Source: Psychromonas sp.
GTDB lineage: Bacteria > Pseudomonadota > Gammaproteobacteria > Enterobacterales > Psychromonadaceae
Assembly (NCBI GenBank): GCA_013619145.1
Contig: JABXKR010000134.1
Span: forward strand, 1 to 37,431
DNA length: 37,431 bases
Direction of reading: 5' to 3'
The notes below the pieces were generated by a model that was given only the letters and a program-made list of their open reading frames with translations, was not told the DNA's origin and searched no databases. Within the stretch, counting starts at the first letter, position 1. Each line of letters begins with the position of its first letter. Made by a program: the position numbers and the translations under genes. Below, one piece after another: positions 2,070 to 25,659 of this stretch.

Positions 2070-2130
2070 TTAACAAAAAAGTAACTACTCAACACCGCAT
2101 TAATCTGAGTTTTTTTTATAAAATAAGACT

Positions 2131-2324
2131 GTAAATACTCAGGGTTAAGCCATTTATGATGAGTTCAAGGCGAAAAAGCGCAGTTTAGTCGTTTAAATGA
2201 GCATTTTTTAACGCAGACAAATATGTATGGAACATATTTGAATGACTTTAGCCAGTTGCGTAGCAATGAAGTACACGGATGTACTTCATAAATAAGCTTA
2301 AATGGCGACGGCCTGAGTAATTAC
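2131..2324. repeat. 194-bp MITE-like intergenic element with terminal inverted repeats
   Basis: The left end (GTAAATACTCAGG...GCCATTTA) and the reverse complement of the right end (GTAATTACTCAGG...GCCATTTA) match at 20 of 26 positions. Inside are two perfect 9-bp-stem hairpins: CAAATATGT/ACATATTTG near 2219-2241 and TGAAGTACA/TGTACTTCA near 2269-2290. No ORF is present. It ends 18 bp before the yfgD start, so that gene's promoter may lie in it. This architecture suggests a non-autonomous, dispersed intergenic repeat. Confidence 0.7.
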
Positions 2325-2342
2325 ACAAAAAAAGGAATAAAG

Positions 2343-2693
2343 ATGACCGACATTACTATCTACCATAACCCGCGTTGCTCAAAAAGCCGTGAAACTTTAG
2401 CTTTACTTGAAAATAAAAGCGATGCGATCGTTGTAATTAAATACTTGGAAACACCACCAAGTGTCGAAACACTGCAGCAGATCATTGGCTTATTAGGTTT
2501 TACCTCGGCACGCCAATTGATGCGCTGCAAAGAAGAGCTCTATAAAACATTAGCGCTAAAAGATGAAAACAGTGAATCAGTCTTACTCAAAACAATGGTT
2601 GAAAACCCAAAACTGATTGAACGTCCAATTGTCCTGGCAAATGGCAAAGCTGCGATTGGCCGCCCACCTGAATCTGTCCTTGATATTATCTAA
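2343..2693 (+). CDS. yfgD: ArsC-family arsenate reductase-like protein YfgD
   Basis: This 116-residue protein has a thioredoxin-fold ArsC signature at the N terminus: IYHNPRCSKSRET, with the redox cysteine at C12 and R16 four residues later. ERPIVLANGKAAIGRPPE near the C terminus is the family's conserved substrate-binding region. Proteins of this family reduce arsenate with glutathione/glutaredoxin. The YfgD branch sits next to hda in many gammaproteobacteria and its true substrate is uncertain. The ATG is preceded by AAGGAATAAAG. Upstream is the 194-bp palindromic element and downstream an intrinsic terminator, so it appears to be transcribed alone. Confidence 0.88.
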   Translation: MTDITIYHNPRCSKSRETLALLENKSDAIVVIKYLETPPSVETLQQIIGLLGFTSARQLMRCKEELYKTLALKDENSESVLLKTMVENPKLIERPIVLANGKAAIGRPPESVLDII

Positions 2694-2701
2694 GAAACAA
2701 G

Positions 2702-2727
2702 GAGCTAGACTTTCTGGCTCTTTTTTA
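2702..2727 (+). terminator. Intrinsic terminator after yfgD
   Basis: GAGCTAGA and TCTGGCTC form a stem (one G-T pair) with a 3-base loop, followed by TTTTTT. It lies 8 bp after the yfgD stop codon. Confidence 0.75.
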
Positions 2728-2740
2728 TAAGTTGAGTTAT

Positions 2741-3130
2741 ATGAAAACCGATCACTATCAATTGCTGGCAAAATCAGGTTATTTTGGATTATTACTTTTA
2801 GTACCTATTTGGCATTTATGGTTATCCCCCCCGACATTAAACCTAAGCCCGTGGTTTGTAACTAGTATCTGGTTTGTGCCTTTACTGTTCCCTTTTAAAG
2901 GTATTTTACGCGGTGATCCCTACACCTATGCGTGGAGTGGTTTTTTAGCCTTATTTTATTTGATACACAGCATTGTTATTTTATTCAGCTCAGAAACGGA
3001 AACAATCCTGGCAACTATCGAATTATTGTTAACGCTTTTATTTCTAACGGGGAATATCTACTTTGCTAAGCATAAAGGAAGAGAGTTAGGACTGAGTATT
3101 CGTAATAAAAAGAGCAAAAAGAAAAATTAA
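2741..3130 (+). CDS. DUF2069 integral membrane protein
   Basis: This is a small inner-membrane protein of 129 residues, counted from ATG 2741; the ORF track uses a TTG three codons upstream. It has four hydrophobic segments, starting with GYFGLLLLVPIWHLWL and ending with a long segment around ATIELLLTLLFLTGNIYFA. The C-terminal tail is basic (KKSKKKN) and so probably cytoplasmic. The family-like motif FPFKGILRGDPYTYAW sits between helices two and three. DUF2069 genes lie in this yfgD-hda neighbourhood in Vibrio and relatives. No function is known. It converges with hda on the minus strand. Confidence 0.82.
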   Translation: MKTDHYQLLAKSGYFGLLLLVPIWHLWLSPPTLNLSPWFVTSIWFVPLLFPFKGILRGDPYTYAWSGFLALFYLIHSIVILFSSETETILATIELLLTLLFLTGNIYFAKHKGRELGLSIRNKKSKKKN

Positions 3131-3151
3131 ATTATCACTCCTCCCTGTTTA

Positions 3152-3880
3152 TTAAAGATCTAAAACTTCTTTAACAAATGGAATGGTAAGTTTACGTTTT
3201 GCTACCAGTGAAGCGTTATCTAATCGGTCCAGGGTTTTTAATAAGGTATTCATCTCTCGTGATAAACGGTTTAATAAAAATCGCCCGACATCAACGGGTA
3301 ACTTCATACCTTTAAGTTGCGCTCGTAATTGCAGAGCACCGAGTTTTTCTTCATCATTAAGTGGTGATAAATGGTAACAGGCCCCCCACTCAAATCGGGA
3401 AACAAGATCGTCAAGCTTTATACCCAACTGTTTAGGTAAATCGCTTGCACAAAGCACTAAACTTGCACCTGACGGGCGATTGCTTTTGTTATCTAGCCAG
3501 CGATTATAAAAATCAAAAAGAGCTTTTTCCCACGTTTTATCGCCCGCAATTGCACCTACATTATCAATACAAACAAGTGTTACAGCTTCCATATTTTCAA
3601 AAATATCTAAGCTCATGCCCTGATAATGATCAAGTGGAATATAAGCAACACTTTCACCGCGCTCATCAACTTCGGAGCATAATGCATGTAATAGATGTGA
3701 GCGCCCACTACCGGACTCCCCCCACATATATAAAACAGGTTCACCCAAACCAACAACACTATTTTTCAGTTGTGTTAATAAGCTTGCGTTTTGACCCGGA
3801 TAAAAACTGGCAAAAGTTTCATCGTCTGGAAATTTGAGTGCTAATAATGGATATTGAAAGCGCAATTCATCCTGCGGCAT
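3152..3880 (-). CDS. hda: DnaA regulatory inactivator Hda
   Basis: This 242-residue AAA+ protein is homologous to the DnaA ATPase domain. With the sliding clamp it stimulates DnaA-ATP hydrolysis and prevents over-initiation. Visible features are FPDDETFASFYPG near the N terminus, a P-loop-like GESGSGRSHLLHA (about 54-66), a Walker B region VCIDNVGAIAGD, VSRFEWG with the arginine of the box VII region, and the C terminus KLTIPFVKEVLDL. In E. coli the N terminus carries the clamp-binding motif QLSLPL. The aligned stretch here reads YPLLAL, so the motif is strongly changed or displaced. The ATG follows AAGGAACCCC and is 12 bp from the DUF2066 gene, which implies co-transcription. Confidence 0.93.
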   Translation of the reverse strand: MPQDELRFQYPLLALKFPDDETFASFYPGQNASLLTQLKNSVVGLGEPVLYMWGESGSGRSHLLHALCSEVDERGESVAYIPLDHYQGMSLDIFENMEAVTLVCIDNVGAIAGDKTWEKALFDFYNRWLDNKSNRPSGASLVLCASDLPKQLGIKLDDLVSRFEWGACYHLSPLNDEEKLGALQLRAQLKGMKLPVDVGRFLLNRLSREMNTLLKTLDRLDNASLVAKRKLTIPFVKEVLDL

Positions 3881-3892
3881 GGGGTTCCTTAA

Positions 3893-4948
3893 TTAACGCC
3901 AGTTAAAGTGAAATTCTTCACTTTGAGAAAGGTCTTGTTGTAAATTGGGCTGTGCAGAAAGTCCATTTTTAAAACTATTCAGACCGCCATTAATTTTAAT
4001 ATTCACAGTGACCTGTGAACCTTCTACTGCAGTCACTTTAAATGAAGCAATCGCTAATAGGTTTGATAATACTTTATTTAGTTGGGTTAATTCCACTAGG
4101 GAGTCAACGCCACTGATATAAATAGTTTGCGAAAACTTTTCACCTTGATTTTCTAAAATAGCATATTGGCTTGCATAATAATCAGCAATATTACTTACCA
4201 TTGAGGACAGTAGCGAGGATTTCTTACCGTTAACTTTCTCTGAAAACAGCACCTCGTTTTGTTTACTAAGCGGATTATATTTTAGCAGTTCCCACTCTAA
4301 AGACCATTTTTCAGCACTGTTTTGTTTTAAATTTGCAACAACAAAATGATTAATACCATAACGGTTAGAAGCCGTCGCTATTGGATCATAAAAACGCCCC
4401 GAAACATCAGAAATAGATAACGCTAAATTATCCTCAAGATCCATTAATGGAAATTGTAAGGCGATACCGCGGTTATGCTGCTGGTTTTGAAGTGCCCAGG
4501 ATAATGCAGAATCTGCACTGCGGTTTACCATATGATCAGAAACAAGTTGGCGATCACTATTGCTATCTTTAATTAACCAAACCAGTGTTGTGGGTCTTGT
4601 ATCCCCCCAAATCGGTTGTTGCATCTCTTTTAATGCTTGATTAATTTTATGTTTATCAAATACAGCCATAAAATAACGCGTATCTTTTAATGTTTGGTAG
4701 CCATACTGAGACAATATACTCTGTGTGTTTTTCAGCAGCTGTTTACTTTCATCAAGTTTAGCAATTTCAACATTTCCAGATACTTTTACTAAAACTTGTT
4801 TTAATGCCAGCTCTTTTAATTGAGCTTCACTTTGTTGTTTTACAACAATATTACCTTGATAAGGGTTATCAAACTGACTTGCAAAAAGTAGTGAACTGAA
4901 TGAAAGAAGTAAGATAAATAAACTACGCGCTAAGTAAATGAATGTCAT
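3893..4948 (-). CDS. Exported DUF2066 domain-containing protein
   Basis: This protein of about 351 residues has a clear N-terminal signal sequence (LARSLFILLLSFSSLLFAS) and a DUF2066-type body: ALKQVLVKVSGN, YFMAVFDKHKINQAL and PTTLVWLI. It should be periplasmic or envelope-associated, and its molecular function is unknown. I prefer ATG 4948. The ORF-track TTG at 4969 adds seven residues, and neither start has a good ribosome binding site. It lies upstream of hda on the same strand with 12 bp between them, an arrangement shared with Vibrio-type genomes. It is divergent from purM across a 340-bp gap. Confidence 0.85.
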   Translation of the reverse strand: MTFIYLARSLFILLLSFSSLLFASQFDNPYQGNIVVKQQSEAQLKELALKQVLVKVSGNVEIAKLDESKQLLKNTQSILSQYGYQTLKDTRYFMAVFDKHKINQALKEMQQPIWGDTRPTTLVWLIKDSNSDRQLVSDHMVNRSADSALSWALQNQQHNRGIALQFPLMDLEDNLALSISDVSGRFYDPIATASNRYGINHFVVANLKQNSAEKWSLEWELLKYNPLSKQNEVLFSEKVNGKKSSLLSSMVSNIADYYASQYAILENQGEKFSQTIYISGVDSLVELTQLNKVLSNLLAIASFKVTAVEGSQVTVNIKINGGLNSFKNGLSAQPNLQQDLSQSEEFHFNWR

Positions 4949-5146
4949 TAATTTAACTGCCAATTGCAAATAATAAAAGCTAGATCATAAGCAGATCTAA
5001 TTCTATTGCAAGATGATAATCATAATTAAGTTGTTAAACTCGTCAATTTAAACAAAGGAAAATGCATTTTAGTTTTCCATATAGCGCCTAATAACTATTA
5101 ATTTATGAAAGATTCACCATAAAGTTTCAATTCAGCACATAAATAA

Positions 5147-16405: not shown

Positions 16406-16937
16406 TATTGTTCCTAGTTAAGTCGGGTTCAGTTTTTATAAAATGCAAAGGATAATGCTGATAATGCGTTAGCTGCGCTTCCATCGTCAAGCTTTGATCT
16501 TTTGGCGTTAACACTTTTCATTTGTGATTTCGCTAAAGTCCTCGAGCAAACAGGAAAAACGAAAACGGAAATATCCTAACCGAACAGCTTGTTATAAGCA
16601 AAATACAGCGCCCTGCTCTCTATTTTTTTGTAATGACAAAAAGCACAACGACAAAACAGCAAAAGGCAGTGGACAGATCTTTTTTACAGTAATAAGGATT
16701 TTCCGTGTTTCCACCGCAAACAGGGAACTTTTCCACCTTTCTACAATAGCTAGATCCTATTGTAAAATACAAACGCTTGATAAAATCAACAAAAGACGTA
16801 AAATTAATCTTTATTGCAAATGTTTGATGGGCGTTTTTCTTGTGGAAACACGGAATTGTTCCGTCTAATAAGATGTTAGTTGCATGATAAGCTAGTCTAG
16901 TTAACTCTTTACTTTATAAACTATAAAAGGAAAATTA
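16406..16937. other. 532-bp spacer before the cassette-like array
   Basis: The only ORF here (16524-16868) is low-complexity and lysine-rich with no family resemblance, so I treat it as non-coding. The spacer contains a 155-bp stretch bounded by perfect 14-bp inverted repeats and a second short palindrome, TACAATAG/CTATTGTA, near 16742-16764. The proximal part should hold the promoter for the 16938 gene. Confidence 0.5.
16701..16855. repeat. 155-bp stretch bounded by perfect 14-bp inverted repeats
   Basis: TTCCGTGTTTCCAC at 16701-16714 is the exact reverse complement of GTGGAAACACGGAA at 16842-16855. The interior is AT-rich and non-coding. It could be a small non-autonomous element or the folded boundary of the neighbouring array. 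Confidence 0.65.
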
Positions 16938-17468
16938 ATGTTTAAATATATTGTGATATTAGCGATCGCATTTGGGGGATATAAAGCTTTTCTATCCCCC
17001 GAAGGGTTTATGAAATCATCATCTAGTGAAGTGTATTCAGATGAATATAAGTTTCAAGTACAGTTCCCTAACAAACCTAAAGAAAAGTCACAAACGGTAG
17101 ATTTACCTGAATTTGGCAAAATTAAGTTAACTACTTATTATGTTCGAAGTCCTGAACTAGCGTGCTCTGTTGGGGTTTCGGATTATTTAGAGCAAACAGA
17201 AGTCTCGGGAGATATCTATGATCAAATAGATGTAGCCAAAAGACATTTGCTAAAAGGCTTTGGAGGTAGCATTAATAAAGAGGAGTTTATTTATAACGGA
17301 AGTGTAAGTGGTTATGAATTCAATATGCGAACAAAAAGCAATAAATTATTACAATCACGCATTTTTACATATGAAAACAATGCATATAACCTTATATGCC
17401 AATACCAAGATACTGATGACTATAGAATAAAAGTGAACGATTTCATGCAATCATTTACTTTTATTTAA
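16938..17468 (+). CDS. Hypothetical membrane-anchored or exported protein
   Basis: This 176-residue protein of unknown function has an N-terminal hydrophobic segment (MFKYIVILAIAFGGYKAFL) that may be a signal or anchor. The rest is a compact domain with KFQVQFPNKPKEKS, TTYYVRS and a closing RIKVNDFMQSFTF. That layout recalls the PsbP/DUF1795-like fold, in which an early FP.P strand and a final SF.F strand pair, but the resemblance is weak. The ATG follows AAAAGGAAAATTA. It is the first gene of the plus-strand array of cassette-like genes, and its AT-rich codon use matches a foreign origin. Confidence 0.7.
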   Translation: MFKYIVILAIAFGGYKAFLSPEGFMKSSSSEVYSDEYKFQVQFPNKPKEKSQTVDLPEFGKIKLTTYYVRSPELACSVGVSDYLEQTEVSGDIYDQIDVAKRHLLKGFGGSINKEEFIYNGSVSGYEFNMRTKSNKLLQSRIFTYENNAYNLICQYQDTDDYRIKVNDFMQSFTFI

Positions 17469-17493
17469 ATAGATTAATAGGTTACAGAGCAAC

Positions 17494-17570
17494 TAATCGG
17501 GTAGCCTGAGATATCTAGCCTCCAGCCCCCACACCACCCTGCATTCGGCTCCACACAGGGCGGTTCATCT
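17494..17570 (-). mobile_element. Probable 3'-end remnant of a group II intron (domains V-VI)
   Basis: Read on the minus strand, GAACCGCCCTGTGTGG...GCAGGGTGGTGTGGGGGC resembles a bacterial group II intron domain V. ACCGCCCT pairs with AGGGTGGT (one G-U) and carries a CGC triad. A following purine-rich segment ends in CTACCCGATTAG, like domain VI and the intron 3' end. The apical part of domain V no longer pairs well, and no reverse-transcriptase ORF is nearby. It lies in the spacer between two cassette-like genes. Confidence 0.5.
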
Positions 17571-17583
17571 ATCGAAATGTCAT

Positions 17584-17616
17584 GATCAAGTATTTAATCT
17601 TGTTAAAGACTTGATC
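17584..17616. repeat. REP-like hairpin, copy 1
   Basis: GATCAAGTATTTAA pairs with TTAAAGACTTGATC (one mismatch). The hairpin is followed by CCCATTAAC, and 16 bp later by the GCGTTAAG core. A related hairpin occurs at 18296-18340 in the next spacer, also followed by CCCATTAAC. Confidence 0.65.
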
Positions 17617-17635
17617 CCATTAACTTTTTTGAGGC

Positions 17636-17642
17636 GTTAAGT
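17636..17642 (+). other. attC-like core site (GTTAAGT) before the 17657 gene
   Basis: GAGGC precedes GTTAAGT, which fits the GTTRRRY consensus of the integron R' box. Its exact reverse complement, ACTTAAC, overlaps the stop codon of the following gene (18236-18242), as expected for the two ends of one cassette. Confidence 0.55.
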
Positions 17643-17656
17643 GTATTAGGAGCATT

Positions 17657-18241
17657 ATGGAACAAAATCAAATTTTTACCCGACCAACATATTTGGAGGT
17701 TTCCAGTCATTTTCTCCATGATGCCATCGACTTCAACATTAGATACAAGTTTTGTATGGAAAGTGATGGACCACTTTTTGGTGAGCCGAAGTCTAGGCGA
17801 GCAAAGTGTTTCATTGACCTGAGAATGGGGATCGAGTCAGATCTAAAGTCACTGATATGCTATCACGACTTCAATAATAGAAAAGGTAAAACGCTAGTAA
17901 AATGGATTGAAAAGTTTCGGCATAATATAGAACGAATGACGAATCGAATTGAGCCATATTTAGCAGCCGAGTTCATGGAAAAGCATAAATCGAACTTACT
18001 AAAGCTAGAAAAACTACCAGTAGATTTAAGGTATCGCTTCGATACATGGGAGTTCAGTGAAAACCAGGAAGCGTTGTACGATGAAACCATAGGTTGCAAT
18101 AGATGGTTAACGGAAATGTATCAAATCTTAGAACAGTTGATAGATTTGGCTAATTGCAATCTAAAACAACACGGTGGCATTGTAACAATGGAGGAAGTAT
18201 TAAAAGAGTTAACTGAGCCAAGGTTCAAAAAACACACTTAA
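17657..18241 (+). CDS. Hypothetical helical cytosolic protein in a cassette-like unit
   Basis: I do not recognise this 194-residue protein. It has no signal peptide or membrane segment and looks mostly helical. A charged middle is visible (KTLVKWIEKFRHNIERMTNRIEPYLAAEFMEKHKSN), followed by WEFSENQEALYDET and a C-terminal helical part, WLTEMYQILEQLIDLANCNLKQHGG. The ATG follows TTAGGAGCATT. The unit runs from GTTAAGT (17636) to ACTTAAC (18236), which are exact reverse complements, with the stop codon inside the second motif. This is the clearest cassette boundary pair in the window. The function is unknown. Confidence 0.7.
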   Translation: MEQNQIFTRPTYLEVSSHFLHDAIDFNIRYKFCMESDGPLFGEPKSRRAKCFIDLRMGIESDLKSLICYHDFNNRKGKTLVKWIEKFRHNIERMTNRIEPYLAAEFMEKHKSNLLKLEKLPVDLRYRFDTWEFSENQEALYDETIGCNRWLTEMYQILEQLIDLANCNLKQHGGIVTMEEVLKELTEPRFKKHT

Positions 18242-18271
18242 CTAATAAGGATAGGTCGTAAGGATGTCAGC

Positions 18272-18301
18272 GAAATGTCAGGGTCAGAAATGTCAGGGTC
18301 A
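18272..18301 (+). repeat. 15-bp perfect tandem duplication
   Basis: GAAATGTCAGGGTCA occurs twice head to tail, immediately abutting the hairpin repeat that starts at 18296. Confidence 0.85.
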
Positions 18302-18340
18302 AGTCTTTAATCTTGATATCAATATTAAAGATTTGACCCC
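18296..18340. repeat. REP-like hairpin, copy 2
   Basis: GGGTCAAGTCTTTAAT pairs with ATTAAAGATTTGACCC (one G-T) around a short palindromic loop. It is related in sequence and position to the hairpin at 17584-17616. Hairpins of this kind are mobilised by IS200-like Y1/REP transposases in other genomes, and none is present here. Confidence 0.75.
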
Positions 18341-18421
18341 ATTAACTGCTCGCCGGTGAGAAAGGCGTTATATTTTTTGACAATAGTCAGTACAAATCGA
18401 AAATAAAAAGGAGGATTAAGG

Positions 18422-19072
18422 GTGGAGATTAGTCTTTTCGGAATGTTTGTGACGGTAGCTGTAGCGCATTTCCTTGCACTTATCAGTCCCGGACCTGATT
18501 TTATACTTGTGGTAAAAAGTGCAATTAAAAATGGAAGTAAAAAATCCATTAGTGTGGCGGCTGGCATCGCTAGTGCTAATGCAGTGTACATTAGTTTGTG
18601 TTTAATTGGTGTTGGTTCCATTCTTGCGAGTTCTTTGATGGTTATGGTCGTTCTTAAAGTGGCTGGCGGTCTTTTTCTTATTTATTTGGCAATAATGGCT
18701 TTACGAGCAAAGAAAAGCAGTTACAAGGATTTGGCTTTAAGCAAGACAGATAGCCTTTATGTAGAAACAACCTTCACACGCGAATACCTGACGGGATTTA
18801 TGTCAGGTATTTTGAACCCGAAAAACCTACTATTTTACATGAGTTTATTTACGGTTGTTTTAACGAAGGATGTTAACTTTACCTTCAAAGTGGTGCTTGG
18901 TGTTTGGATGACATTGGTCGTATTCTTATGGGATTTATCGATTATTTATCTTTTATCAACAAGCAAGGTACAACGTAAGTTCTCCAAAATAGCGTATTAC
19001 TTAGACAAGTTTACTGGTGCTGTTTTAGGCATAATTGGTTTCACAATAGTGAAGTCTGCGCTTACGAAATAG
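18422..19072 (+). CDS. LysE/RhtB family exporter 1
   Basis: This 216-residue inner-membrane protein of the LysE/RhtB amino-acid exporter superfamily has six hydrophobic segments. The N-terminal signature is FLALISPGPDFILVVKSAIKNGSKKSISVAAGIASAN. Later landmarks are GGLFLIYLAIMALR and GFMSGILNPKNLLFYMSLFT. The family exports amino acids or related metabolites (homoserine, threonine, lysine), but the substrate cannot be read. The start is GTG with AAGGAGG seven bases upstream. It is the first of three consecutive members of the family. Confidence 0.9.
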   Translation: MEISLFGMFVTVAVAHFLALISPGPDFILVVKSAIKNGSKKSISVAAGIASANAVYISLCLIGVGSILASSLMVMVVLKVAGGLFLIYLAIMALRAKKSSYKDLALSKTDSLYVETTFTREYLTGFMSGILNPKNLLFYMSLFTVVLTKDVNFTFKVVLGVWMTLVVFLWDLSIIYLLSTSKVQRKFSKIAYYLDKFTGAVLGIIGFTIVKSALTK

Positions 19073-19170
19073 GATGGTGGAACAAACTATAAGTTGCTGC
19101 ACTGGACTGTTTACGGCTGTCACGGTTTTTGTGGGTAACATCAATTTACTTATGAAAGGGTAATTATCTT

Positions 19171-19809
19171 TTGAATTTTGAAACTTGGTTATTATTTTTT
19201 GTAGCTTATTTAACAATTACTTTATCTCCTGGCCCAAATGTTTTGCTGGTGATAAAAAATGCGGTTAAGTATGGTTATAAAGCAGCAAGCGTTACTATTC
19301 TGTTAAATCTCATCTGTCAGCTTATGATCATTACATTAGTTGCTTATGGCGCTGGTGCATTATTAGAAAAGTCCCCTATATTGTTTTTCGCTTTAAAGTT
19401 AACAGGCGGGGCTTACTTGATTTATCTTGGTATAACAGGCCTTCTTACAAAAGTGGGATCTAGCCATACAGAGAAAATAGAAGAGATATCTCCAATACAA
19501 TTTTCTTATTATAAAGTGTGCAAAGAAGCTTTTTTAGTTTCAGCAAGTAATCCTAAAACGATAATTTTTCTTTCAGCTTTTTTACCGCAATTTATAGCAA
19601 CTGACGCATCTATTGGTTGGCAATTTACAATAATGTTTTTGACAATTTGTTTTATTGTCATGTCTGTGCATTTAGTTTATTCGTATATCGCGAAAAATAT
19701 AAATAAGAAATGGTCAGGCTTAAAAGCACAACCTATTTTTTCTAAAATAACAAACAGTGCATTTTTAGCCTTTGGTTGTGGTGTGCTATTAAGTAGTCGT
19801 ACAACGTAA
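19171..19809 (+). CDS. LysE/RhtB family exporter 2
   Basis: This 212-residue protein begins at TTG with LLFFVAYLTITLSPGPNVLLVIKNAVKYGYKAAS, the LysE/RhtB signature, followed by GGAYLIYLGITGLL and SASNPKTIIFLSAFLPQF. Six membrane segments are apparent. It is clearly diverged from its two neighbours, so the three are not recent tandem duplicates. The upstream 98-bp spacer shows no clean attC core. The downstream spacer contains the best attC-like site of the array. The substrate is unknown. Confidence 0.9.
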   Translation: MNFETWLLFFVAYLTITLSPGPNVLLVIKNAVKYGYKAASVTILLNLICQLMIITLVAYGAGALLEKSPILFFALKLTGGAYLIYLGITGLLTKVGSSHTEKIEEISPIQFSYYKVCKEAFLVSASNPKTIIFLSAFLPQFIATDASIGWQFTIMFLTICFIVMSVHLVYSYIAKNINKKWSGLKAQPIFSKITNSAFLAFGCGVLLSSRTT

Positions 19810-19818
19810 ATATAAGCA

Positions 19819-19903
19819 AATTAACAGGACTGAAACAGCGGGCTATTTTCGCTACGCACAAGTTTAGCCCACAATTTTCAGCCCGTTAATTTGGGCGTTA
19901 CTT
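19819..19903 (+). other. attC-like recombination site after LysE 2 (best example)
   Basis: The site runs from AATTAAC to GTTACTT over 85 bp. An internal stem pairs CTGAAA and GGGCTA with TAGCCC and TTTCAG. The right end GCCCGTTAATTTGGGCGTTA strongly resembles the right end of Vibrio VCR/attC repeats (GCCC..TTA..GGGCGTTA). Confidence 0.65.
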
Positions 19904-19931
19904 TTTGAATTTAACGAAATAAGGATTATTC

Positions 19932-20567
19932 GTGTCTGATTTTAGTTTTTGGTTATTATTTTTTTCCACTGCATTAGCTTTGAATATCGCTCCTGGGCCT
20001 GATCTTTTATATATATTGACCAAGACAATAGCGAATGGGAAAAAAGTAGGTATCGCATCTTCTCTGGGAGTATGTACAGGGGCGCTTTTTCATGTGGCAG
20101 CAGCTGCTGTTGGTTTATCTGCTATTTTGGTTTCATCCGCATTTTTGTTTTCAATAGTGAAATTTTTAGGGGCTGGTTACCTAATCTATTTAGCCTACCA
20201 GTCATTTCGTTCTGCTGGTACTAGTTTAAATATCAAGTCAGAGGAGCAGCCTAAAGAATCCGCATGGACAGCTTTTAAGCAGGGTGTACTTGTTGATATT
20301 TTAAATCCTAAAGTGGCTATCTTTTTCATGGCATTTTTACCCCAGTTTATTCGCGATGGCTATGGCTCTGTTCCCATTCAGCTACTTTATTTAGGTTTGT
20401 TAGTTATTGCGGTCGCTGTTGTAGTTGAAGTTATTTATGTATTAGTCGCATCAAAACTGACAGAAAAAGTAAGAAGCAGCAAGACTGCCAGTGTATGGAT
20501 CGATCGTGTTGTCGGAACGATTTTTACTGGATTAGGGTTGAAACTGGCAATAAGTTCGAGCATATAA
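19932..20567 (+). CDS. LysE/RhtB family exporter 3
   Basis: This 211-residue LysE/RhtB protein starts at GTG, with AAGGA upstream. The signature ALNIAPGPDLLYILTKTIANGKKVGIASSLGVCTGALFH is followed by GAGYLIYLAYQSFR and VDILNPKVAIFFMAFLPQF. Six membrane segments are predicted by eye. The stop codon TAA lies inside the motif ATATAAC, which begins the next spacer. Having three adjacent exporters of one superfamily is unusual for a chromosome but fits a cassette collection. Confidence 0.9.
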   Translation: MSDFSFWLLFFSTALALNIAPGPDLLYILTKTIANGKKVGIASSLGVCTGALFHVAAAAVGLSAILVSSAFLFSIVKFLGAGYLIYLAYQSFRSAGTSLNIKSEEQPKESAWTAFKQGVLVDILNPKVAIFFMAFLPQFIRDGYGSVPIQLLYLGLLVIAVAVVVEVIYVLVASKLTEKVRSSKTASVWIDRVVGTIFTGLGLKLAISSSI

Positions 20568-20656
20568 CCTAGTGTCTTAAAAGCGCTTAAAATGCGATAT
20601 CAAAGCGCTATTTTTTCTAATATTTGCTGTGAGATAATTCTACAGCCTCGTTATAT
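20562..20656 (+). other. attC-like site after LysE 3
   Basis: ATATAAC (overlapping the gene's stop codon) and GTTATAT are perfect reverse complements bounding 95 bp. Inside, AGCGCTT pairs with AAGCGCT. Confidence 0.55.
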
Positions 20657-20670
20657 TTCAAGGAGAGTGT

Positions 20671-21135
20671 GTGCACTTTATTTCAGCCACTGAGGCTCAC
20701 TATAAGGGAATTTTAAATTTAGTTCCTTCTCGTGAAGAGTTATATCTTGTTTATCCAAGCGGTACTTTCCCTTTGGATAATTCTCAGTTACAACAACTTG
20801 CAAAAACACGCAGTGATTTAACCGTCGCTATTGATGGTGAGCATGTCGTGGCTTTTGCTAACCTGTATCAGGTTAATCAAAGCTGCTCAGCCTTTATCGG
20901 GAATGTTGTGGTTGCCAATTCACACAGAGGACAGGGAATAGGTAAAGCTTTAACATTACACATGGCTGAAGTATGCCAAGTAAAATATGAAGCAACTCCC
21001 CATTTATCTGTGTTCAACTTTAATACTAAAGCTTTGTTAATGTATACAGGATTAGGCTTTAAGCCATATGCAATTGAGCAACGTGAAAACTTAACAAAAG
21101 AACCTGTCGCGCTTGTACATATGAGCCTGCGTTAG
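20671..21135 (+). CDS. GNAT family N-acetyltransferase
   Basis: This 154-residue acetyltransferase has the acetyl-CoA-binding motif A visible as NVVVANSHRGQGIGKALTLHM (about 78-98) and the following strand HLSVFNFNTKALLMYTGLGFKPY. These are standard GNAT landmarks. The acceptor substrate is unknown. The start is GTG, with AAGGAG upstream. The leader AAGGAGAGTGT recurs exactly before the next gene (21181-21191). GNAT genes are common integron cassettes. Confidence 0.88.
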   Translation: MHFISATEAHYKGILNLVPSREELYLVYPSGTFPLDNSQLQQLAKTRSDLTVAIDGEHVVAFANLYQVNQSCSAFIGNVVVANSHRGQGIGKALTLHMAEVCQVKYEATPHLSVFNFNTKALLMYTGLGFKPYAIEQRENLTKEPVALVHMSLR

Positions 21136-21182
21136 AACATTACAAATCAAGCGAGGCATTACGGCTGTTTGCGGCGTTATAA
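21132..21182 (+). other. Short attC-like site after the GNAT gene
   Basis: TTAGAAC (overlapping the stop codon) and GTTATAA are complementary at six of seven positions and bound 51 bp. The right end is GCGGCGTTATAA. The next gene's ribosome binding site begins immediately. Confidence 0.5.
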
Positions 21183-21192
21183 GGAGAGTGTG

Positions 21193-21942
21193 TTGGAAAA
21201 ATTTGCTGTACTGTCAGATATTCATAGCAACGTATTTGCTCTTAAAGCTGTTGTTGATGATGCGAAATCAAAAGGTGTGACAACTTTTATTAATCTTGGT
21301 GATATTTTATATGGACCGATTGCTCCAAGAGAAACATATGATTATTTGCTTTCTCTGGATGCAATAACGATTTCGGGCAATCAGGACCGACAAATTTATG
21401 AGGCCACAGAAGCTGATATTATTTCTAATCCAACCATGCAGTTTATCTTGAATGATTTGGGTAAATCACCCTTGTTATGGATGCAGCAGTTACCTTTCGA
21501 TTTACAGATTAACGCTGATATTTATGCGTGCCATGGCACCCCGAGCGATGATCTTGTATATCTATTAGAGGAGATCAGTTCAGGTCGTGCCGAACTGCGA
21601 TCTGATAGTGAAATAATTGAGTTATTAAATGGCGTATCTTCACCGGTAATTATTTGCGGGCACACTCACACGCCAAGATGTGTTGAGTTATCAACGGGTC
21701 AAATAGTTATTAATCCTGGGAGCGTCGGCCTTCAAGCTTATAGCGACGATCAACCTAGCGTGCATTCTATGCAAAATCATTCATCAAAAGCATCCTATGT
21801 AACCTTGCAGAAAAAAGCAGATAAACAGTGGGAGATAGTGTTTCACAAAGTTGATTATGATCTACAAAGTGCAATAAATGCCGCCAAATCACAAGGTCGT
21901 GATGATTGGGTGCATTTCCTGTCCACAGGCAGGTGCTTATAA
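21193..21942 (+). CDS. Metallophosphoesterase (YfcE/MJ0936-like)
   Basis: This calcineurin-like phosphoesterase of about 249 residues has all metal-binding motifs in order: LSDIHSN, NLGDILYGP, SGNQDRQ (in place of the usual GNHD), CHGTP, and ICGHTHTPR with INPGSVG. It likely hydrolyses phosphodiesters or phosphomonoesters, with the substrate unknown. I start it at TTG 21193, six bases after GGAG. The ORF-track start at 21169 falls inside the attC-like site. Its unit begins with GTTATAA (21176) and ends with TTATAAC (21937), exact reverse complements, and the second overlaps the TAA stop. Confidence 0.88.
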   Translation: MEKFAVLSDIHSNVFALKAVVDDAKSKGVTTFINLGDILYGPIAPRETYDYLLSLDAITISGNQDRQIYEATEADIISNPTMQFILNDLGKSPLLWMQQLPFDLQINADIYACHGTPSDDLVYLLEEISSGRAELRSDSEIIELLNGVSSPVIICGHTHTPRCVELSTGQIVINPGSVGLQAYSDDQPSVHSMQNHSSKASYVTLQKKADKQWEIVFHKVDYDLQSAINAAKSQGRDDWVHFLSTGRCL

Positions 21943-21968
21943 CAACGCAAGCAATCGGCGTGTAAAAT
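21937..21968 (+). other. Partial attC-like left end after the phosphoesterase
   Basis: TTATAAC overlaps the stop codon and is followed by AACGCAAGCAATCGGCG. The matching GTTA right half is not found. A tandem repeat takes its place. Confidence 0.4.
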
Positions 21969-21974
21969 TGCACA

Positions 21975-22004
21975 AAAGGTAAATAAAGGTAAATAAAGGT
22001 AAAT
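21975..22004 (+). repeat. Three tandem copies of a 10-bp unit carrying the ribosome binding site
   Basis: AAAGGTAAAT is repeated three times exactly, ending one base before ATG 22006. The last copy supplies AAAGG at a normal distance from the start. Confidence 0.9.
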
Positions 22005-22005
22005 C

Positions 22006-22623
22006 ATGCACCGAATCATAGTTTCAGATATTTTTGGAAAAACAAAATCATTAGAGAAAATATCAGATTCACTATCTGGAACTGTAGAAATTTTTGATCC
22101 CTACGATTCTGTATCAATGAATTTCAAGACAGAGCAGGAAGCCTATGCACACTTTAGTTCTGAAGTTGGCTTGGAAAAATACACAGAGAAGCTTAAAGAA
22201 TATTTGTTGAATCTTAAAAAACCGGTATCTTTGCTTGGGTTTAGTGTCGGAGCTTCAGCAATATGGAAACTATCAGCAGAGCAAGAGATCGTTAATGTTT
22301 TGGGCTCAGTATGCTTCTACAGTTCTCAAATCCGACACTACAGAGAGATAGTGCCACAATTTCCGGTTCAACTTGTCTTCCCAAGTGATGAAAATAGCTT
22401 CTCGATAACTGAGCTGATAGAACAACTTAAAAAAAATAAGCGAGTAAAAATTCACCAAGCGCCATACCTTCATGGATTTATGAATTTTCATTCTCCAAAC
22501 TTTACCCCTTATGCATACGCCCTATACTTAAGGGCTTTGTGCAATGTGCCATGTAACACCTGTATCCAAATGAGCGAATTCTTCAGAATAAGCGACTTCA
22601 GCAAACGCTTTGTGAGCGGCTAA
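22006..22623 (+). CDS. Alpha/beta-hydrolase-like protein (dienelactone-hydrolase-like)
   Basis: This 205-residue protein has a nucleophile elbow GFSVGAS (S80), a strand ending VFPSDEN (possible acid D128 or E129) and YLHGFMNFHSP (H156). That order is as in small dienelactone-hydrolase-like enzymes. The N terminus MHRIIVSDIFGKTKSL reads as the first strand. The family call is by motif order only, and the substrate is unknown. The stop codon TAA lies in GGCTAAC, the start of the next palindromic spacer. The last 30 residues look unrelated to the fold and may be an altered tail. Confidence 0.65.
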   Translation: MHRIIVSDIFGKTKSLEKISDSLSGTVEIFDPYDSVSMNFKTEQEAYAHFSSEVGLEKYTEKLKEYLLNLKKPVSLLGFSVGASAIWKLSAEQEIVNVLGSVCFYSSQIRHYREIVPQFPVQLVFPSDENSFSITELIEQLKKNKRVKIHQAPYLHGFMNFHSPNFTPYAYALYLRALCNVPCNTCIQMSEFFRISDFSKRFVSG

Positions 22624-22662
22624 CTCACTAATTGGAGGCTAGCAGCAAGTGGCGAGTTATTA
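22618..22662 (+). other. Short attC-like site after the 22006 gene
   Basis: GGCTAAC overlaps the stop codon and GTTATTA ends the site. TAACTC and GAGTTA are perfect inverted repeats, and the right end reads GTGGCGAGTTATTA. Confidence 0.4.
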
Positions 22663-22757
22663 TGTCTATAGCTAGCAAGCGTATAGATCCAAATGAGTTT
22701 CGTGAAAATGGTTGATTTAGCGTAGTATGTCGGTAATTGAATATACTGAAGTTATCT

Positions 22758-23048
22758 ATGACTATTGAAGTAACAAATCTGCCAGATCCTGAAGTAACAT
22801 GTGCAAAATGCCAAGCTTGCTGTTGTCGTTTAGAAGTTATGATTGTTACTGACACTGGTGTGCCAGAGGAACATATTGCAGCTGATGCCTGGGGAGGTCA
22901 AGTTATGGCTCGTTTAGATGATGGTTGGTGTTCAGCCTTAGATCGCGATACCTTGATGTGTACAATCTACGAAAATCGACCATGGATTTGCCGAGAATTT
23001 GAAATGGGTTCGTATGAGTGTCTCAATGAATATAACGAAAATACGTAA
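22758..23048 (+). CDS. YkgJ family cysteine cluster protein
   Basis: This protein of about 96 residues has the cluster VTCAKCQACCCRLEV near the N terminus. Downstream cysteines are in DGWCSAL, TLMCTIYENRPWICREFEMG and SYECLNEY. This is the YkgJ/UPF0153-type CxxCxxCC pattern, thought to hold zinc or iron. The start is ATG 22758 (MTIEVTNLPDPE). The ORF-track TTG at 22737 adds seven residues without a ribosome binding site. It is the last gene of the plus-strand array. Its biochemical role is unknown. Confidence 0.82.
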   Translation: MTIEVTNLPDPEVTCAKCQACCCRLEVMIVTDTGVPEEHIAADAWGGQVMARLDDGWCSALDRDTLMCTIYENRPWICREFEMGSYECLNEYNENT

Positions 23049-23232
23049 CGGTTTTACCTAGCACTAATTGATAGATGATTTCTTCTTTTTGCGGTCGTCT
23101 ACTCTTCCCCTCGAAACACAGCATCGTTCAAACCTCCTTCCTATGTTCACTAAATAGCCAACCTGAATTAACACCACCTACAAGGCGGGAGATCCGCTTT
23201 TATTTTGCAGGTAATTCAATGTATTAGAATAG
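23049..23232. other. Gene-free spacer after the array
   Basis: No ORF is apparent. The only structure I see is a terminator-like hairpin at 23182-23207, where AAG(G)CGG pairs with CCGCTT and is followed by TTATTTT. It could end transcription of the array on the plus strand. Confidence 0.45.
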
Positions 23233-23307
23233 CAAAGCAATTCAGAAAATGGCTTGAGCGCTCAAAAAGAAAATCGCCACTTCAGTTGGCAAGGTGAATC
23301 CGCCTGA
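23233..23307 (+). pseudogene. 3' remnant of a paralogue of the 13250 membrane/winged-helix gene
   Basis: The frame reads ENGLSAQKENRHFSWQGESA then TGA. The intact gene ends EKGLVTQKPNRHFSWQGAAA then TGA. Over the 57 bases 23251-23307, 44 match the intact 3' end by my count, and several differences are silent third-position changes. An in-frame TAG at 23230-23232 closes the upstream side and nothing before it resembles the rest of the gene. It is therefore the tail of a formerly complete homologous gene. Confidence 0.75.
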
Positions 23308-23351
23308 TAGCAAAATGAGCTTATAGCCAAGCTCTCTGCCAAAGCGCCCAA

Positions 23352-23385
23352 AAAAAGCCCGCTAGTTAATCTCTCGGGCTTTTTA
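23352..23385. terminator. Bidirectional intrinsic terminator
   Basis: AAAAAGCCCG pairs with CGGGCTTTTT around a 13-base loop. It lies between the gene remnant and the 3' end of the minus-strand MFS gene. Confidence 0.75.
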
Positions 23386-23407
23386 AAACTACAGGTTAAC
23401 TGGACAA

Positions 23408-24604
23408 TTAATCAATGCAGGCTTGTTGATTAAACTCAGCTTTTAACGCCAAGCGTTCCCTTTCTGCTAAGTACATGAAAAACAGAGCAATTAAACAAAA
23501 CAGGGCTGCGGCGATAAATACCGCATAATAACTGAAATATTGTGCGATCCCCCCCACTATTAGGCTGCTTGATAATATGCTGAGCATTATGCTGTTATTA
23601 AACAGTGTTGAGGCTAAACCTATCTGTTTTTTCATCAAATCCTGTACAACCAGCATACCTAAACTGGCGTTGATACCAATAAACACACCGTTAAATAGCT
23701 GCAGTAACATAAACTGCCAGAGCTGTTGTGCAACTAGCAAACCAGCAAAAAATAGCAGGCCGCTAATACAAGCGATATAGATTAGTCGCGTTGCACCGAA
23801 CCTCGGCGCAAGATAACCCGCACTTAACATAATTGGGATTTCAACAAAGGCCGCAATTCCCATCAGGTAGCCCACCCATTTAGAGTCAAAATTTAACTCT
23901 TGAGTGATATAAAGACTTATTGATGTGAGGTACATATTGTTGGCACTAAAGGCAAAAAAGATGGATATCAAAAAGAATAAGACGCCAGATATTTTTAGCC
24001 AATTCACGTTTTCGCTCTCAACCTGCTCTTCTTTAATCTGGCTATCAGTCATAGCAAAGCAAACAATAATAAATACCACTGCAGCAAAAAAAACCGCAAG
24101 CAGAAACGTTTGTTTAAAACCGAAAGAATCATTTATTAAAAAGGCCACTGGTGGTCCAATCACCCACGCCATAGCCATTGCTGCACGCATCATAGTAACA
24201 AATACTGCCGCTTTATCAGCAAGCTGGTTATCTGCAAAATCACGCCCCATGCTGAAAATTTGCGGTAAACAAACCGCACTTAACGACATAAAAAAAATAA
24301 CCGCACACAATATAGTGTAATAGTGATGACTCATTGCCAAAAAAATCGTAGTGATAATAAACCCAGTTTGGCCCGCTAAAACAATATACTTGCGACTTAA
24401 ACCCTTATCTGATTTTTTGGCAATATATTGCGAGACCAATACCCCGCTTAAAACCATGCAAGTAATCAAAATACCCATGCTTATTGGTGTAGCGTGAACT
24501 TCCTCAATCAGATAAAGACTTAATATAGGATAAATGAAGGCGGTACTTAGCCCGATAAAAAAACAGGTCAATAAATAGATAATCGATTGTTTGCTAAATA
24601 ACAT
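23408..24604 (-). CDS. SetA/SetB-like sugar efflux transporter (MFS)
   Basis: This 12-helix major facilitator has about 398 residues. It begins LLTCFFIGLSTAFIYPILSLYLIEEVHATPISMGILIT and carries SDKGLSRKYIVLAGQ at the cytoplasmic loop. The overall pattern (QIFSMGRDFAD, MMRAAMAMAWVIGPPVAF, GIAAFVEIPIMLSAGYL) matches the SetA/SetB sugar exporters of enterobacteria. The substrate is probably a sugar or glycoside. I start it at ATG 24604 with AAGGAG upstream; the ORF track begins five codons earlier. It is divergent from an AraC-type regulator, its likely controller. Confidence 0.85.
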   Translation of the reverse strand: MLFSKQSIIYLLTCFFIGLSTAFIYPILSLYLIEEVHATPISMGILITCMVLSGVLVSQYIAKKSDKGLSRKYIVLAGQTGFIITTIFLAMSHHYYTILCAVIFFMSLSAVCLPQIFSMGRDFADNQLADKAAVFVTMMRAAMAMAWVIGPPVAFLINDSFGFKQTFLLAVFFAAVVFIIVCFAMTDSQIKEEQVESENVNWLKISGVLFFLISIFFAFSANNMYLTSISLYITQELNFDSKWVGYLMGIAAFVEIPIMLSAGYLAPRFGATRLIYIACISGLLFFAGLLVAQQLWQFMLLQLFNGVFIGINASLGMLVVQDLMKKQIGLASTLFNNSIMLSILSSSLIVGGIAQYFSYYAVFIAAALFCLIALFFMYLAERERLALKAEFNQQACID

Positions 24605-24718
24605 GTTGCGCTCCTTCATAATTGAATAATTTATGCACGTAATTTAGCAATTTAAGGCACAACAAGTGATTCTTTTCAGGCCACTTCTGATACTATCCTA
24701 TCATATGCAAAGGCGGCT

Positions 24719-25594
24719 ATGATAGAAAAGGTATCTGTATTGAAACCGACAATTGAAAAAGTAAGCAATCAGCGTGATTTTAGCTGGCGAATCCACCGTT
24801 ATGATTGTTGTGATGCACAATTTGACTGGCATTATCATTTTGAATATGAGGTTGTACTGCACCGTCATTTAAGCGGAAAGTTGTTTGCCGGTGACTACAT
24901 TGGTGAAATAAAACATAATAACCTGACTATCTTTGGCCCTAAACTGCCTCATACTGTGATCCACGAAGCTGATTCAGATAAACAAAATAACAGCACCTAT
25001 ATCTTATGGTTCAGCCAGCAATGGATAAACCAACTGATTAATCAGCTGCCTGAGCTTAATAATCTGAAATCTTTATTAAGTCGCTCGATTCAGGGATTGC
25101 AGTTTGACGAATTGACAGCTGAGCGTGTATTTCAACTTTTACAAGAGCATCAAGCTTTCAGTCCTGCGATGGGATTTAGCCGCTTAATTGAAGTCCTGAT
25201 TATTTTAAGTGAGGCAAAACAGGTAAAACGGTTAAATACCTACAGCTTGCCCGAGATTGAAGACAATCCAAAAGAGTTAAAGCTGGTACGGAAAATCTCT
25301 AATTATATTGAATTAAATTACCGTAATAATATTCAAGTTATTGACTTATGTAATGAGATACATGTCAGTGAAAGCACCGTTTATCGGCTTTTTGAGCGCC
25401 ATTTTGTATGCAGCTTTTCTAATCATGTTAAGGAATTTAGGATAGGCAAAGCCTGTGAACTTTTGGTTAACAGCAATACCAGCATCGCAGTAATTGCAGA
25501 CTTAGTCGGTTTTAGTAATTTATCGAATTTTAACCGCCAGTTTAAACAGTGTAAGCAGATGACACCTAAGCAGTTTCGCTTACTGTTTGCTTAA
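24719..25594 (+). CDS. AraC family transcriptional regulator
   Basis: This 291-residue regulator has an N-terminal cupin-like sensor (DCCDAQFDWHYHFEYEVVLHRHLSGKLFAGDYIGE). The C-terminal double HTH of the AraC family (about 190-290) shows IQVIDLCNEIHVSESTVYRLFERHF and NTSIAVIADLVGFSNLSNFNRQFKQCKQMTPKQFR. The ATG follows AAAGGCGGCT. It diverges from the SetA-like exporter across a 114-bp spacer that should contain both promoters and its operators. A sugar effector is an inference from the neighbour. Confidence 0.92.
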   Translation: MIEKVSVLKPTIEKVSNQRDFSWRIHRYDCCDAQFDWHYHFEYEVVLHRHLSGKLFAGDYIGEIKHNNLTIFGPKLPHTVIHEADSDKQNNSTYILWFSQQWINQLINQLPELNNLKSLLSRSIQGLQFDELTAERVFQLLQEHQAFSPAMGFSRLIEVLIILSEAKQVKRLNTYSLPEIEDNPKELKLVRKISNYIELNYRNNIQVIDLCNEIHVSESTVYRLFERHFVCSFSNHVKEFRIGKACELLVNSNTSIAVIADLVGFSNLSNFNRQFKQCKQMTPKQFRLLFA

Positions 25595-25617
25595 ACAGAT
25601 AAGATCCCCATGTTTAC

Positions 25618-25640
25618 GCCCTGCTCGATCGGGCTTTTGT
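25618..25640 (+). terminator. Weak intrinsic terminator after the AraC gene
   Basis: GCCC pairs with GGGC around a short loop and is followed by TTTTGT, 24 bp after the stop codon. Confidence 0.45.
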
Positions 25641-25659
25641 CCGCCAGATGATAAAAAGG

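Follow-up and report, generated by a model that had tools for sequence, protein, structure and literature searches.

The systems closest to the locus described here are integron cassette arrays, the elements that enter their attC sites and the proteins of the HEPN fold. A cluster of attC sites without an integrase, containing at least two such sites, is known as a CALIN. The HEPN fold, which has four helices at its core, occurs in RNA-cutting toxins and in phage-defence proteins. In HEPN proteins of the 2hsb and AbiV types the Rx4-6H motif is without its His, but a different His is conserved; 3jrt has been listed as representing another HEPN family, one carried on cassettes (Anantharaman et al. 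2013, PMC3710099). Group IIC-attC introns have been reported in attC sites, in the orientation opposite to the cassettes (PMC7923331).

We analysed a stretch of 37,431 nucleotides from Psychromonas sp. (contig JABXKR010000134.1), referred to below as the window. The gene at 17657-18241 on the plus strand encodes a protein of 194 amino acids. We hold with good confidence that this gene is an integron cassette in a decayed array, that both of its flanking attC sites are disrupted and that its product is most likely a divergent HEPN domain.

Cassette boundaries and homologues

The left cassette core GTTAAGT (17636-17642, plus strand), which would be the R' box of the preceding attC, is located 21 bp 5' of the ATG and is preceded by TTTTGAGGC. 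Between core and gene a ribosome-binding site AGGAG can be read at 17648-17652 (plus strand). The R'' box of the cassette's own attC, ACTTAAC (18236-18242, plus strand), overlaps the TAA stop codon. As the first-pass annotation of this DNA had stated, the two 7-mers are exact reverse complements (7/7). Chance would rarely place such a pair around an ORF, which taken alone is suggestive yet not decisive. The motif RYYYAAC occurs 72 times in the window against 79 expected matches, i.e. at chance level, and motif counting alone was therefore rejected as evidence for a cassette. The full arrangement, defined after the case had been seen as GTTRRRY at most 40 bp 5' of a start codon with the exact complement of that match lying at most 10 bp before or 60 bp after the end of the stop codon, was present at one of the 52 ORFs of the window; if placement were random, about 0.010-0.012 such cases would be expected across the whole window.

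The cassette reading was decided by a homologue with a matching boundary between complete attC sites. A scan of genome contigs revealed nine loci with homologues of 37-55% identity, and a tenth, L106, came from a search around the Vreelandella genome. L028, the homologue of Vreelandella lionensis, is 51% identical to the window protein, and a complete attC site borders its gene exactly on either side (2250-2347 and 2934-3032 of that locus). Its left core GTTAAGT, 20 bp 5' of the ATG, and its R'' box ACTTAAC over the stop codon are the same as in the window, and its R''/R' pairing is 7/7. At L030 and L031 an attC follows directly 3' of the gene, and the left cores are complementary to its R'' box in 7/7 and 6/7 positions, respectively. 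Taking the window together with L028, L030, L031, L106 and L035, the core stands 19-21 bp 5' of the ATG. Sites in L028, L031 and L035 are also recognised by a covariance model (R1) built from 16 attC sites of congeners; a single tandem array supplied 13 of these, and others lay close to intI. The proposal that the 17657 gene is a cassette is thus supported by L028, by the same geometry at L030 and L031 and by the neighbours of the gene, which form a decayed array (see below). Nor were the homologues confined to fixed contexts with the same flanks: their contexts differ between several genera, among them Alkalimonas, Vreelandella, Onishia, Oceanospirillum and Pseudohalioglobus.

Five homologues (L027, L029 and L032-L034) show no cassette boundary at the corresponding place, so that the family is not exclusively cassette-borne. 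Two of these, L032 from a Motiliproteus MAG and L033 from a Porticoccus MAG, are identical copies whose flanks are nearly the same up to a point about 150 bp downstream, where they part. Identical copies in two distantly named MAGs suggest either that a mobile element was recently at work or that the binning went wrong. The protein is patchily spread, being present in 1 of 60 relatives, credibly in 1 of 395 genomes of the order and in 5 of 275 of the family of L028. A second match within the order, in G738 (E 4e-4 over 59 residues), fell within an unrelated-looking ORF and was dismissed. No match was obtained among plasmids, phages and viral contigs.

The product of the cassette gene

The product had been described as unrecognised. 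This holds at the level of named families, as the 194-aa protein matched none in Pfam, NCBIfam or PADLOC, but a divergent HEPN-like fold is now its best reading. A partial PHROG tail-protein match (E 0.008) and Pfam matches of single members were dismissed as chance. Judged from these searches the protein would belong to a new, rare and unnamed family.

AlphaFold modelled both the window protein and the L031 protein as all-helical, with a mean pLDDT of 80 and 82, respectively. For each model Foldseek ranked 2hsb, a HEPN protein, first among PDB structures, with probabilities of 0.82 and 0.99, and HEPN toxins and several independent HEPN structures recurred lower among the matches of both. In an alignment of eight sequences E60, K64, H89, R125 and Y126 are invariant. 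E60-x3-K64 falls within helix 47-71 of the model, which corresponds to the E-x3-[KR] motif of HEPN helix 2, while no Rx4-6H catalytic motif is invariant among the eight sequences. When the family was compared as a profile with proteins of the PF05168 type drawn from gammaproteobacterial genomes, E-x3-K, the His of a THDI motif and the R-Y pair aligned in register. The score of 27.4 exceeded the maximum of 19.6 among 200 column shuffles, with an hhalign probability of only 20%.

It could be argued that the protein has an unrelated all-helical fold and that its similarity to HEPN is one generic to helical bundles. Sequence families do not match it, Foldseek E-values never fell below 0.1 and TM-scores ranged from 0.34 to 0.54, all of which leaves this alternative a serious though unlikely one. 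It does not readily explain why 2hsb ranks first for two models, why independent HEPN structures recur, or why the conserved residues stay in register in a comparison that beats every shuffle. The likeliest reading of the protein is therefore a HEPN domain of the AF0298/PF05168 type that has diverged and is without the classical Rx4-6H motif, and we call it HEPN-like rather than a proven member.

By analogy, such a protein might act as an RNase toxin or in phage defence. Near the L030 homologue an FRG-domain protein is encoded that matches the PADLOC candidate PDC-S15, which gives mild circumstantial support to a role of this kind. A gene for an MNT nucleotidyltransferase does not adjoin the cassette gene, whose neighbours in the window belong to other families or to none, and MNT was also absent from the tested neighbours in L028, L030 and L031. 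It is conceivable, though we consider it doubtful, that these proteins form a new HEPN family whose active site consists of the His before helix 3 and the R-Y pair in place of Rx4-6H, and that this family travels on cassettes among gammaproteobacterial integrons, has no antitoxin and works as an RNase under stress or against phages.

Disrupted attC sites in a decayed array

The cassette belongs to a series of nine small genes on the plus strand (16938-23048), which shows the traces of a decayed cassette array. The gene preceding it (16938-17468) encodes 176 amino acids and has no Pfam match. TAAC is present at the stop codon of 5 of the 9 array genes but at only 1 of the 31 other genes of the window (Fisher P = 0.001), and these stops look like R'' boxes that have outlived their attC. 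One attC has survived, with a partly decayed R'' box, at 19807-19904 (plus strand) after the LysE-type gene 19171-19809, 1.6 kb downstream of the cassette. It is the only site in the window recognised by model R1 (56.9 bits, E 3e-12). For this reason the LysE-type gene, and not the 17657 gene as the first-pass annotation had it, has the stronger claim to be the best single cassette candidate of the window. Relatives of the LysE-type gene in congeners had no adjoining attC within the sequence pieces examined.

Relative to congener G009, the array lies in an insertion of about 9 kb (16406-25659), whose flanking genes stand about 40 bp apart in that congener. No integrase was found among the Pfam-scanned genes of the window. 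Further attC sites are present on other contigs of the same genome. The sole integron-type integrase found in the genome (G000:C34, L056:6928-7662, minus strand) lacks the first ~70 residues in an assembly that is 86% complete, and there is no attC on its contig. A MITE-like repeat of 179 bp with inverted ends ttccgtgtttccac is located at 16701-16879; several copies occur in the genome, some of them near attC sites. In congener G019, 296-aa tyrosine recombinases are repeated at a spacing of ~3-4 kb (C1:2362766-2370547; C2:106029-109753; C2:249225-252994).

Neither attC next to the cassette is intact. The remains of its own attC extend from 18243 to 18373 (plus strand) and end in a GGC-GTTATAT core. 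They gave no significant match to the attC covariance model, and in a bottom-strand fold the R''/R' pair reaches 5/7 only and L-box pairing is absent. Thus the ends of the proposed inserted cassette are complementary, but the cassette is not intact and its downstream site does not fold as an attC. Because no complete foldable attC is present at its 3' end, we class it as a decayed and not as a functional cassette; since the pairing has been lost, it is probably stranded and immobile.

Two copies of a palindromic repeat flank the gene, one in the slot of the upstream attC (17574-17625) and one in the downstream attC (18287-18347). They are direct copies, 713-722 bp apart, with arms that are 88-91% identical. 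The upstream slot also holds what is probably the truncated 3' end of a group II intron, including the domain V region, at 17494-17570 on the minus strand, opposite to the cassettes. Copies of this 77-bp repeat with about 80-94% identity occur in congeners, and four of them score as RF00029, with the match on the other strand from the genes, while the window copy is below the Rfam threshold for a group II intron. Its position in an attC slot and its strand fit the group IIC-attC introns (PMC7923331).

Similar combinations were seen elsewhere. On the reverse strand of L057 (G008:C29:32000-39000; 2096-5119) small genes alternate with four units of 414 bp, 93-97% identical, that occupy the places expected for attC sites; a group II intron 3' end, on the opposite strand, opens each unit and a conserved GTTA closes it, and similar copies are found in L059 and L061. 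This tandem array resembles a series of cassettes with one and the same truncated intron in each attC site. TwoAYGGAY RNA (RF01731) matches lie near the intron-bearing arrays of all three loci. On G000:C195 (L109:5303-6560) an attC of 109 bits is followed by a cassette gene and then, on the opposite strand, by the end of a group II intron reverse transcriptase.

The two flanking palindromes might also be taken to mean that the gene was mobilised as a unit by them, as a composite element of the IS200/REP type, and not by an integron. Their direct orientation around the gene, close spacing and high identity would fit, but we consider this very unlikely: no copy beyond these two was found in the genome with up to 3 mismatches allowed, the genome has a single Y1 match, a broken fragment that no such repeat adjoins, so that a Y1/REP transposase was rejected as their source, and the cassette boundaries inside the repeats match those of L028, which has no such repeats. 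Least probable of all is a chance match of the 7-mers around a gene that is no cassette but arrived by ordinary horizontal transfer and lies in a genomic island: the chance-level frequency of RYYYAAC, the non-canonical downstream attC and the five homologues outside cassettes would agree with it, but it is opposed by a joint arrangement expected about 0.01 times, by the surviving attC nearby and the TAAC stops of the array, and is largely refuted by the identical boundary of L028 between two full attC sites.

Proposed history and relation to known systems

A cassette later stranded in its array remains the best account of the locus. The gene would have come in as a cassette consisting of one gene with its own leader and an R'' box. 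From the boundaries, which are seen, we infer a move by IntI-catalysed recombination at the attC core GTTAAGT, between G and TTAAGT. It would now reside in a decayed array without an adjoining integrase, within the chromosomal insertion. Later the left attC would have been disrupted by the group II intron end and a palindromic repeat, and the right attC by the second copy of that repeat. The product, which is intact, may by analogy bind RNA or cleave it as part of a response to stress or to phages.

In this way an orphan ORF becomes a traceable event, the capture and subsequent stranding of a cassette. The locus suggests that R'' boxes over stop codons can persist after the remainder of the attC has been lost, and such boxes could provide a handle on fossil arrays that attC models miss. 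If the HEPN reading is true, the HEPN proteins carried on cassettes gain a testable family that lacks the classical motif.

Like the group IIC-attC introns, the probable intron end of the window occupies an attC slot and runs opposite to the cassettes of the array. Unlike them it retains the 3' end only, and the likeness is one of position and strand. With the AF0298/PF05168 (HEPN-T) type, exemplified by 2hsb, the protein would have in common E-x3-K in helix 2, a His before helix 3 and R-Y at the end of helix 3. It differs in falling below Pfam detection, with no HEPN family matched, in its greater length of 194 aa with extra helices and in having no MNT partner. The 3jrt family is likewise of HEPN type and carried on integron cassettes in Gammaproteobacteria, but there Rx4-6H is conserved; the motif is absent from the window protein, and 3jrt, considered as a sequence relative, gave no match. 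The locus also resembles integron cassettes and CALINs: a single small gene has its core at -21 and an R'' box over the stop codon, its neighbours are on the same strand and belong to unrelated families, an attC survives nearby and no integrase stands beside the array. The difference is that the flanking attC sites have been destroyed here and that one recognisable attC is left in the stretch, a full site accompanied by eroded ends. As an integron cassette whose product is unnamed the locus is of an ordinary kind, and it makes a clear case of a fossil cassette.
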